DNA of 64,000 nt from Pontibacter sp. Tf4 (GTDB lineage: Bacteria; Bacteroidota; Bacteroidia; Cytophagales; Hymenobacteraceae), in NCBI RefSeq assembly GCF_014212495.1, contig NZ_JACKZC010000004.1, positions 124,001 through 188,000 of the forward strand, given 5' to 3'. Under the pieces are notes generated by a model. That model did no database searches and had not been told where the DNA came from. It saw only the letters and a program-made list of their open reading frames with translations. Below are positions 11,009-56,655 of this stretch, in pieces. The position numbers and the translations under genes are program-made. Within the stretch, counting starts at the first letter, position 1. Every line of letters starts with the position of its first letter.

Positions 11009-11020
11009 GGATATCCTAAA

Positions 11021-11048
11021 TAGATTTCTCGCTACACTCGAAATGACA
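11021..11048. repeat. Dispersed Bacteroidota intergenic repeat, right copy
   Basis: The block TAGATTTCTCGC ... CGAAATGACA is inverted relative to 10339-10368. Together the two copies bracket the AT-rich TIMP-like gene. Confidence 0.75.
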
Positions 11049-42511: not shown

Positions 42512-43123
42512 AACCACCCCTAACCCCTCCTTATCTAAGGCGGGGAACTCTACCTTCGCTATAGTTTAAGTTATAGTTCTATAATTAGCGTTTGTCATCC
42601 CCCTGCCCCCTTCAAAGGGGGACTTTCTGCTACTACTATAGATTCAACTATAGTTTCATAGGTACATATCATAAACAGGCTGGCGCAGCCTGCCCCAAGG
42701 AACTACAACCACGAGAAAAGACGATCTGCTCAAGCTAAGAGCAAGCACAGCAACTAAAGTCAAAGCAGCAGCTATCGAGTATGATCACAGTCTTTGGGTT
42801 GAGCGCCTTTGACTTGTTGCGGTGCCGCAGGCAATCCGAGGGACGAGGATAGCAAGAAGGCAGCAGCGCGATGCCCGAAGACGAGGCCTCCCGGCCCGGG
42901 AGGGAGCTAACCAAACTATAAAACTATAGGCTCATAAAGCTCTCAGGATTGAAAGTGGCTATGAAAGAGAAGACTTGTCTCAAATAGTAGGCAAAGCTAA
43001 CTATAGAACTATAGCCCTTGAGCACCAACTATAAGCTGAGATAGATTTCTCACGCTGTTCGAAATGACAATAATGGAAACTATAAGACACATAAGATCCC
43101 TCGGCTAACGCTCAGAATGACAA
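42512..43123 (+). repeat. Composite intergenic repeat, copy 1
   Basis: Fills most of the 875-bp gap before gcvT. Parts in order: a CCCCTCC-stem hairpin block (42512-42552), a related CCCCCTTC/AAGGGGG hairpin block (42595-42630), the structured core (42773-42907), AACTATAG clusters, then two dispersed terminal blocks (43038-43072 and 43089-43123). The same blocks occur at 47461-47985 and 56144-56655. Confidence 0.85.
42773..42907 (+). ncRNA. Structured repeat core, copy 1 (candidate RNA, strand uncertain)
   Basis: Three-way junction: stem P1 CTTGTTGC (42813-42820) with GCAAGAAG (42852-42859), one conserved G-G mismatch. Inside it are hairpin TGCC-GCA-GGCA and hairpin ATCC (42834-42837)/GGAT (42847-42850) with the 9-nt loop GAGGGACGA. 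A GC-rich hairpin CCTCCCGG/CCGGGAGG follows at the 3' end. Not known to be transcribed. Confidence 0.45.
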
Positions 43124-47318: not shown

Positions 47319-47460
47319 TTAGATTGATGTTTGTTACGTGATGATTGTTGGCAAAGATAAGCTTGGATTGTTAAAAGGTAAAAGGTTTGTCAGGTTGTCT
47401 GGATCAGGATTTGGGTTGTCTGCTATAGTTTAAGTTATGGTTCTATAGTTTCAGTGGTTC

Positions 47461-47985
47461 AAACCACCCCTGCCCCTCCTTATCTAAGGAGGGGAACTCT
47501 GATACTGCCATTTCACAAAATATAGTTCTATAGTTTCAGACCACGAGCAGGACAGGTTTACCTGTCCACACGGAACTATGACCACGGGAAAAACCGATCT
47601 GCTTTAACAAAGAGCAAGTCCAGACAACTATAGCCAAAGAAAAAGCTATCGAATATGATATCAGTCTTTGGGTTGAGCGCCTTTGACTTGTTGCGGTGCC
47701 GCAGGCAACCCGAGGCACGAGGGTAGCAAGAAGGCAGCAGCGCGATGCCCGAAGACGGGGCCTCCCGGCCCGGGAGGGAGCCAAGCAAACTATAGAACTA
47801 TAGGCTCATAAAGCTCCCAGGATTAGAGGCAACTATAGAACTATGGCTTGTTTCAAGTTGCAACTATAGCTAACTATAGAACTACAAACTATAAGCTGAG
47901 ATAGATTTCTCGCTACACTCGAAATGACAATAATTGAAATGAACTATAGGACATATAAGATCCCTCGACTGCGCTCGACATGACA
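47461..47985 (+). repeat. Composite intergenic repeat, copy 2
   Basis: Occupies most of the 765-bp gap 47319-48083. Parts: CCCCTCC/GGAGGGG hairpin block (47461-47500), a linker with GACAGGTTTACCTGTC (palindrome, 47551-47566), the structured core (47647-47781), AACTATAG clusters, terminal blocks at 47898-47932 and 47951-47985. Same order as copy 1. Confidence 0.87.
47647..47781 (+). ncRNA. Structured repeat core, copy 2 (candidate RNA, strand uncertain)
   Basis: P1 CTTGTTGC (47687-47694)/GCAAGAAG (47726-47733); hairpin TGCC-GCA-GGCA (47697-47707); hairpin ACCC (47708-47711)/GGGT (47721-47724) with loop GAGGCACGA; outer GCGC/GCGC; 3' hairpin at 47761-47777. The stem ACCC/GGGT replaces ATCC/GGAT of copy 1, a compensatory change. 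Confidence 0.5.
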
Positions 47986-48083
47986 ATAGTAGACTATAGG
48001 AACGAAAAGAAGTCCCGGCTGACGATTGGAATGAAAAGATTGAACTATAATCGCAACAGGTAGCTGATCAGATAGCCTGAATC

Positions 48084-56143: not shown

Positions 56144-56655
56144 CAAACCACCCCTGCCCCTCCTTATCCAAGGAGGGGAACTCTGATATTGCTATAGTTT
56201 CAGCTATAATTCTATAGTTACAGACCACGAACAGGACAGGTTTACCTGTCCCTTTGGAACTATAACCAGGAGAAAACCGATCTGCCCAAGCTAAGAGCTA
56301 AAACATCAACTATAGCTAAGGCATTGACTATCGAATTGCTATCAGTCTTTGGGTTGAGCGCCTTGTAGATTTCTGGTGCCGCAAGGCATTGCGAGGTACG
56401 AGCAAAGGAAATGTACACCGCGCGATGCCCGAAGACGGGGCCTCCCGGCCCGGGAAGGAGCCAACGAAACTATAAAACTGTAGGTTCTTAGAGCTCCCAG
56501 GAATAAAGGAATTTTGGAAGGATAGTTTAGTTCCAGCAGTAAGCAGAGCCAACTATAGAACTAAAGGACACATAAGATCCCTCGGCTAACGCTCGGGATG
56601 GCAATGAAGTAACTATAGGCTGAGATAGATTTCTCGCTACACTCGAAATGACAAT
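56144..56655 (+). repeat. Composite intergenic repeat, copy 3
   Basis: Fills the 667-bp gap between the aminotransferase and glycosyltransferase genes. Parts: CCCCTCC/GGAGGGG hairpin block (56144-56183), GACAGGTTTACCTGTC palindrome (~56233-56248), structured core (56327-56463), then terminal blocks in swapped order (56569-56604, 56621-56655). Confidence 0.86.
56327..56463 (+). ncRNA. Structured repeat core, copy 3 (candidate RNA, strand uncertain)
   Basis: P1 GTAGATTTC (56365-56373)/GAAATGTAC (56408-56416) with the G-G mismatch at the same position; hairpin TGCC-GCAA-GGCA (56377-56388); hairpin TTGC (56389-56392)/GCAA (56402-56405) with loop GAGGTACGA. Both stems have completely different sequence from copies 1-2 but stay paired. 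Confidence 0.5.

Follow-up and report, generated by a model that had tools for sequence, protein, structure and literature searches.

The 64,000-nucleotide stretch of Pontibacter sp. Tf4 DNA analyzed here (the window) carries three copies of a repeat whose core is probably an undescribed structured RNA domain of MITE-like elements, presumably bound by a putative protein. The elements occur mainly in Hymenobacteraceae, and relatives are scattered over four other families of the order. In the usual view a non-autonomous transposon depends on nothing but its ends, and a junction-plus-pseudoknot RNA kept by paired changes implies that some step in the life of such a small mobile element takes place at the level of RNA.

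Fold of the repeat core

Covariance model R2, built from 70 diverse members of the family, found the three cores where the first-pass annotation had placed a three-copy repeat (E 1.9e-22 to 6e-21; Table 1), and at E ≤ 1 these were the only matches to the model within the window. Reading the copies reproduced the letters reported for hairpin 2 (ATCC/GGAT, ACCC/GGGT and TTGC/GCAA in copies 1, 2 and 3, respectively), as well as hairpin 1, the GCGC/GCGC clamp and both versions of stem P1. Other parts of that description stood for single copies but not for the family. The 9-nt loop proposed for hairpin 2 has the letters given for it, GAGGNACGA, but is not an open loop in the family, where the cap closes further as a G·A hairpin. 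The proposed G-G mismatch in P1 occupies the fourth pair from the outside in copies 1 and 3, but the family as a whole does not share it: the same position is paired, as judged by eye, in other members such as L057 (G, L and g numbers denote genomes, loci and genera). The three-way junction is the exact minimum-energy fold in copy 1, but copies 2 and 3 fold with other tips; likewise, the proposed 3′ hairpin is the minimum-energy alternative in copy 2, but the family covaries as an H-type pseudoknot. A 10-bp outer stem around the clamp, missed in the first pass, belongs to the fold. Outer stem and clamp formed in every window copy folded alone. The z-scores of the single-copy folds were modest (-2.40, -2.97 and -4.43), and since these folds are modest or inexact, the proof of the fold is comparative.

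Table 1. Positions of the three cores in the window, with the parts and surroundings of copy 2
Feature	Position	Strand	Basis or remark
Copy 1 structured core, SSF symporter gene on one side, gcvT on the other	42788-42912	+	R2 E 3.1e-22
Composite around copy 1	42524-43122	.	Absent at the same site in G032 and G026
Copy 2 structured core (outer stem, three-way junction, 3′ pseudoknot)	47662-47786	+	R2 E 1.9e-22; own-genome BLAST family
Copy 3 structured core, flanked by DegT-type aminotransferase and glycosyltransferase genes	56343-56466	+	R2 E 6e-21
Composite around copy 3	56149-56653	.	
Small palindromic modules upstream of copy 2	47465-47567	.	CCACCCC type 47465-47497; GGACAGG hairpin 47550-47567
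Repeat unit, 5′ part before core (CTATCGAA near core)	47574-47661	+	Conserved across copies
Outer stem, 5′ strand GTCTTTGGGT, pairs with 47747-47756	47664-47673	+	Folds; paired rewriting in distant members
TGA side of 3x3 internal loop, opposite GAT 47744-47746; read as tandem G·A	47674-47676	+	Sequence
Inner clamp GCGC, pairs with 47740-47743	47677-47680	+	Folds, covariation
P1, 5′ strand, pairs with 47726-47736	47684-47694	+	Folds, covariation; weakest helix
Hairpin 1, TGCC/GGCA	47697-47707	+	Covariation
Hairpin 2, ACCC..GGGT, GAGGCACGA cap (GA / G-C / GA)	47708-47724	+	Covariation; cap by eye
Outer stem, 3′ strand GCCCGAAGAC	47747-47756	+	Folds, covariation
H-type pseudoknot	47759-47779	+	Family covariation; simple hairpin is minimum-energy alternative here
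Pseudoknot S1, GGCC / GGCC	47759-47762 / 47767-47770	+	
Pseudoknot S2, TCCC / GGGA	47763-47766 / 47776-47779	+	
Repeat unit, 3′ part after core (AAAGCTC..CAGGAT..GGCTTGTTTC)	47786-47880	+	Conserved across copies
TTTCTCGCTAC..GAAATGACA module downstream of copy 2	47898-47929	.	

Read 5′ to 3′, the structured domain of about 120 nt consists of CAG, the outer stem, a TGA/GAT-type internal loop, the inner clamp, CTT, P1, hairpins 1 and 2, the return of P1, CA, the returns of clamp and outer stem, CG and the pseudoknot, in which S1 is GGCC-like and S2 runs from the S1 loop to a downstream G-N-G. By eye, the internal loop is retained in many members and fully paired in a few G029 copies, and the hairpin 2 cap reads GA[G..C]GA, GA[C..G]GA, GA[GC..GC]GA or a GAAA loop. 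A long-range GCTATC/GATAGC closing stem was dropped, as it is not retained in the own genome.

Comparison across distant members supports the earlier proposal that the fold itself is selected. The outer stem, nearly constant among close relatives, is rewritten in pairs in distant ones (GTTTCTCTG/CAGAGAAAC, GTTTTTCCG/CGGGAAAAC and GTCCCTGGC/GCCAGGGAC). In alignment A4, comprising 73 distant sequences (66 distinct) and fitted to the model, so that its pair counts lean towards the structure, two-sided changes were present at 34 of 37 base pairs (21.3 in shuffles) and in 351 cells (128.5 in shuffles), 85.5% of cells were paired (71.5% in shuffles), and the covariation score was 0.359, compared to 0.148 for column shuffles and at most 0.112 for slid partners. 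Least distinct was the number of further pair types, 73 against 66.7 in shuffles, and 6 of 500 shuffles reached it. Covariation was also present in alignment A2, 40 rows made with MAFFT without structure fitting: hairpin 2 columns 54/73 held TA in 22 rows and AT in 13, hairpin 2 columns 56/71 GC in 19, CG in 13 and TA in 3, the cap columns 61/67 G-C in 22 and C-G in 8 of the 40 rows, and pseudoknot columns 114/125 CG in 22, GC in 9 and TA in 7. Two chance matches (L155 and L051) were left out of the alignments, and members with inserts or damage (L041, L117, L126, one of L045 and one of L059) were left out of A2.

Compensation also held for hairpin 2 in further copies, where 93.9% of cells were paired with two-sided changes in all four pairs, and for the outer stem, with 94.2% of cells paired. 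P1 is the weakest helix at 60.5%; part of the shortfall comes from the two main subfamilies, whose P1 lengths differ by one pair. For the 3′ end, a parser that required S1 pairing but not S2 read 123 of 145 distinct sequences and left 22 unparsed; all three S2 pairs were present in 92 of the 123, mainly as CGC/GCG (43), CCC/GGG (35) and CTC/GAG (11), two pairs (AGC/GCG) in 25, and fewer or unread pairs in 6. As judged from these alignments, the element's 3′ hairpin is an H-type pseudoknot in the family, and we consider the anatomy of fold and element described here very likely to be correct.

Three cores (L048, L081 and L047) appear by eye to join P1 halves of different subfamilies, which suggests recombination or gene conversion between copies. 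Separately, an insert of about 20-30 nt (GGGGGTAGGGGCCCTC.. or its complement) lies inside core hairpins at varied positions in several species (L041, L117, L126, L045, L188, L191, L217, L266, L270, L271, L273-L275, L277, L305-L312, L315 and L316, by eye) and behaves as if targeting hairpins.

Distribution and carrier elements

The family proved far wider than the three copies from which a covariance-model search of Hymenobacteraceae had been suggested. In the own genome, a 17-base signature of the 3′ core, allowing up to two mismatches, matched 64 + 52 = 116 times on the two strands, compared to 0 + 1 for the reversed control, and BLAST with copy 2 gave at least 40 places, from the best 40 of 123 candidates that were scored. 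The core was found in several named Pontibacter species among the matches listed from a pattern scan of public genomes and BLAST. Model R1, built from 40 sequences, matched 33 of 59 genomes, including 32 of 37 in the own genus, with at least several hundred matches across the 33, counted up to a ceiling of 60 in any one genome. Under strict filters and with the best 9 candidates per genome, R2 matched 39 of 390 genomes of the order in 11 of 129 genera: 18 genomes of the own genus, 10 of three other Hymenobacteraceae genera and 11 of four other families. Genus g23 of the same family had an R2 match in 0 of 19 genomes among those listed. A closer look with R2 gave 26 matches in G277, 74 in G402 and 51 in G216, and the 11 genomes of other families held 1 to 8 matches each, five of them only one. 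A plasmid home was rejected after blastn against plasmids gave no match, as was a viral home: a 16-mer occurred in 19 viral stretches, and the only BLAST match of the core, at L155, covered 26 bases and was judged to be chance.

The bounds of the element were read directly in two distant Pontibacter genomes, G036 and G027, where the RNA lies inside non-coding elements of 264-349 bp with 18-bp terminal inverted repeats (TIRs). The TIR word AACGTGAACTYGGGAATA occurs 25 + 26 times in G036 and 5 + 6 times in G027 (controls 1 + 2 and 2 + 0), and all 16 facing pairs of this word within 10 kb are 264-349 bp apart. Using a looser TIR word and accepting spans of 200-450 bp only, a facing pair was found at 25 of 36 loci in these genomes and none at the other 11. 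Ten of the 25 pairs are bordered at the TIR by direct repeats that match exactly over 5 bp or more (AAAGT, GAGTTT, GGATT, AAACT, a T-run, TTTAT, AAAAT, ATTTT, ATACA and AATTC) and 15 are not, compared to about 0.02-0.04 exact duplications of this length expected by chance (an estimate from base composition). R2 matched 24 of the 25 TIR-pair elements, among them 8 of the 9 that had been fetched by the TIR alone, without an R1 match; in the remaining one, L319, the core is visible by eye but broken by an insert. No autonomous element with the same TIR was found in G036 and G027 among facing pairs within 10 kb.

The TIR letters differ between species. The consensus of 15 aligned copies in G029 opens with TTTGCTGGCGTAGCTTC and closes with the reverse complement of that word, and a search for TTTGCTGGCGTAGCTTC in that genome gave 11 + 7 matches compared to 0 + 4 for the reversed control. 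By eye, the G029 TIR may extend to about 70 nt. The core sits roughly 45-75 nt inside the element end, and some G025 and G029 elements carry two cores head to head. Among the matches listed for G216 were 11 head-to-head pairs, 9 of which have inverted repeats of 73 to 216 bp, and 0 tail-to-tail pairs within 1 kb, while G030 has a composite of about 700 bp in 20 copies. A second palindromic domain (CTTACTTTTCTCCTTGATGAGAAAAGTAAGCAAAAGAATCAA...) was seen by eye at the left end of some elements (in the stretches upstream at L263, L304 and L245, and at left ends in G029) and may be a structured family of its own.

Filled and empty sites were observed at the position of copy 1. A gcvT gene was present in each of 41 genomes, 30 loci were examined, and the order SSF-gcvT was kept in 5. 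The core is present there in the own genome, G059 and G030, and the site is empty in G032 and G026, where the SSF-gcvT gap is about 95 and about 190 bp, respectively. Hairpin 2 at this site reads ATCC/GGAT in the own genome, ACAC/GTGT in G059 and ACCC/GGGT in G030, differences that may have arisen by gene conversion between copies. The elements are thus short and non-coding, with TIRs, target duplications and filled and empty sites, the features by which MITEs are recognized; the first-pass annotation had missed this mobile setting of the fold. In the species of the window, other small palindromic repeats intermingle with this one, whose ends are hard to make out, so that the MITE reading there rests on homology with the distant elements. 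The queried palindromic modules cluster at the three window cores, with one exception in the window at 11020-11048.

Neighboring genes and the acting strand

The main alternative to a trans-acting partner is a cis-acting role in mRNA, where the fold, as a 3′-UTR stabilizer or insulator or a 5′-UTR regulator, would make insertions tolerable or useful to neighboring genes. Orientation was counted for 93 copies, of which 23 with a neighbor missing were dropped and 70 used; L001 and L017, duplicates of window copies, were left out of these counts. Cores were found in 23 convergent and 8 divergent gaps (p 0.011), and in tandem gaps they lay along the gene direction in 27 cases and against it in 12 (p 0.024), as a cis role would predict; however, genes were called by an ORF rule, and promoter avoidance alone accounts for the convergent excess. 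Such placement is what insertion away from promoters, mildly favoring the sense strand, would produce.

Single copies beside particular genes also speak for a role in cis. In genus g11, each of the four positive genomes has one R2 match, and in all three genomes examined the core lies directly upstream of a gene with the same start, whose product has GFO_IDH_MocA and GH109 C-terminal domains (Pfam, two genomes). Three pairwise comparisons among three of the four genomes gave core identities of 95, 95 and 94 of 100, while identities in the flanks were 71/78 (5′) and 21/65 (3′) for G046-G215, 49/122 and 18/71 for G046-G369, and 47/122 and 51/71 for G215-G369, the 71/78 and 51/71 stretches being fairly well kept too. 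In G340, one copy is flanked by MoxR and DUF58 genes. Judging from these cases, the fold may persist as part of an mRNA, and the g11 position before one gene fits a cis-regulatory role equally well. Against such a role as the general explanation, the three window copies have unrelated genes as neighbors, the own genome holds more than a hundred signature matches, and no terminator-type U-tract was seen by eye after the pseudoknot in the copies viewed. We regard a cis-acting mRNA element as a rather unlikely, though serious, account of the family.

The first-pass annotation had left it open whether the fold acts as RNA or as a folded DNA end, and the composition of the paired cells narrows this towards RNA. 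The paired cells of alignment A5 contained 145 G·U and 10 A·C; of the 145, 87 fall at two positions where U·G is nearly constant, and without these positions the counts are 58 and 10. Counted per pair, G·U occurred at 19 of 37 and A·C at 4 of 37. A cruciform folds both strands and no bias of G·U over A·C would be expected from it, so the excess argues against a two-strand cruciform and favors RNA. One strand of the fold is shown by these counts to be preferred, and RNA rather than DNA is, in our judgment, quite likely the acting form.

A less likely acting form is one strand of the DNA, folded while single-stranded. Integron attC sites and IS200/IS605 ends are single-strand DNA recognized by shape, and the fold could in the same way be a structured subterminal transposon end. 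The core does lie near the TIR, some elements have inverted cores at both ends, and the fully paired internal loops of a few G029 copies would suit DNA as well. Yet many copies have a full core at one end only, the TIRs and 5-bp duplications would better fit ordinary double-strand DDE transposition, and G·U lies far above A·C, which together make this explanation unlikely. In a comparison with attC sites, whose motif is RYYYAAC, the 5′ arm was found to carry GTTGAGC, but the partner sequence does not conform to RYYYAAC.

Partners and related systems

The possibility of a known RNA family was checked in Rfam, and nothing above cut-off lay over the core, as the first-pass annotation had expected. 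There were 0 matches over the core at the gathering threshold in the window and none above cut-off at E ≤ 10 in 47400-48050. At 14 relative loci searched at E ≤ 1, the sole match above cut-off was an SRP RNA outside the core at L187. A MIR7533 match at the L338 copy was rejected, as its 35.6 bits are far under the cut-off of 230. A search of the open-access literature, judged by titles and the opening lines of abstracts, gave no paper that describes the element.

Among 2363 open frames at 186 loci, some of them overlapping, no recurrent neighbor protein specific to the loci was found. The commonest neighbor family (14 loci) is ABC ATPase-like and another (6 loci) short-chain-dehydrogenase-like by eye; other recurrent open frames mostly fall inside the repeat itself. 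Candidate systems were searched for in the own genome. A group II intron, retron or DGR RNA was rejected, with 0 matches to PF00078 (controls were positive in 3 of 14), and so was an IscB omega-RNA, the only RRXRR match being broken and scoring 17.5 bits against a cut-off of 25. This IscB-type remnant has three stops (L160:1501-1803). A REP/RAYT mobilizer was likewise rejected: the four own-genome Y1_Tnp loci lack the core and the queried modules, and BLAST of core and modules at these loci returned only 12-16-base fragments of the core's flanks. The Y1_Tnp genes themselves (L161-L164) we take to be RAYT-like, and one adjoins GCGCGAGCTTGTAGCTCGTGCC-type palindromes. With no locus-specific protein, no reverse transcriptase and a broken IscB, the elements seen are non-autonomous.

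For such elements, we propose that a transposase supplied in trans would move the element via its inverted repeats, that transcription starting in the element or passing through it would yield the RNA strand, and that the fold would be selected because the RNA binds a putative protein helping the element to persist or spread. That a trans-acting protein partner serves the element is a tentative proposal, to which we give somewhat less than an even chance. Signature matches range from 1 to 116 per genome, and with this spread, co-occurrence can be used straight away to search for a partner. In a narrower form of the proposal, mobility or retention would need the folded transcript to be loaded into a trans-encoded nuclease or transposase acting on element or host DNA. 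This is quite unlikely, but if true it would add to the known TnpB, IscB, IS110 and group II types a further kind of RNA-assisted system, one that expanded in one family of bacteria and, in another, was domesticated as the leader of a single gene.

A related precedent is RAGATH-18, an orphan RNA later shown to be the reRNA scaffold of IS607 TnpB, adjoining tnpB in 64% of cases, and at least one such orphan RNA has proved to be the scaffold of an RNA-guided enzyme (PMC11061315). On the same pattern, the present fold could be an omega-RNA- or reRNA-type scaffold for a trans-encoded, RNA-guided nuclease or transposase. Its pseudoknot and G·A motifs would suit such a scaffold, and the direction of the RNA strand leads out of the element, across its end, into host DNA. 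However, the core lies some way inside that end and not at the edge where guides start, the own genome has 0 IscB matches over cut-off, and the loci lack a specific recurrent neighbor, which makes a guide scaffold improbable. A very improbable reading is that the fold has no function and template switching at quasi-palindromes or gene conversion keeps its arms complementary, as the recombined look of some copies (mixed P1 halves, e.g. L048) and the perfect-palindrome outer stems of some G029 copies might suggest, but correction of the arms would be expected to remove the near-constant U·G pairs and G·A loops that persist across species, would not readily produce covariation of interleaved pseudoknot strands, and sits poorly with g11 single copies that keep the core while most flanking stretches diverge.

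A structured RNA domain of a non-autonomous element, our preferred reading, can be set beside several described systems. HEARO, the omega-RNA of IscB, is a multicopy mobile structured RNA in bacteria, and the present family is likewise multicopy, mobile and structured but differs from HEARO in having no Rfam match over the core and an own genome without intact IscB. We know of no described MITE with an interior RNA fold of this kind. Prokaryotic MITEs such as QMITE2 of Coxiella have short direct repeats and TIRs, and their transcripts are predicted to fold (PMC10969869). The present elements are, like them, short, non-coding, multicopy and intergenic with TIRs and short direct repeats; unlike them, they have an interior of a multi-helix junction and a pseudoknot kept by compensatory change across genera. 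With RAGATH-18 (PMC11061315) they share an orphan structured RNA with pseudoknots in a small transposon, but differ in having no specific neighbor protein, in TIRs with a target duplication and in the lack of an Rfam match over the core. REP/BIME repeats with RAYT are similar as intergenic palindromic repeats in more than 100 copies (PMC2817692), and REP-like modules surround the window cores, but the present core is a 120-nt junction with a pseudoknot and the Y1_Tnp loci lack it. The MITE features are known ones, and what appears new is the interior RNA fold; the family resembles RAGATH-18 without evidence of membership.

A separate feature of the window is a frequent palindromic word. The sequence CTATAGTT, half of the palindrome AACTATAGTT, occurs 143 times in the window compared to 1.9 expected, with 25 full palindromes, and AACTATAGTT/CTATAGTT apparently lies inside genes too, as a HIP1-like highly iterated palindrome in a Bacteroidota genome. 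At G029 loci, the words AAGTATAA/TTATACTT are frequent instead (by eye), and the iterated palindrome word may differ between clades.
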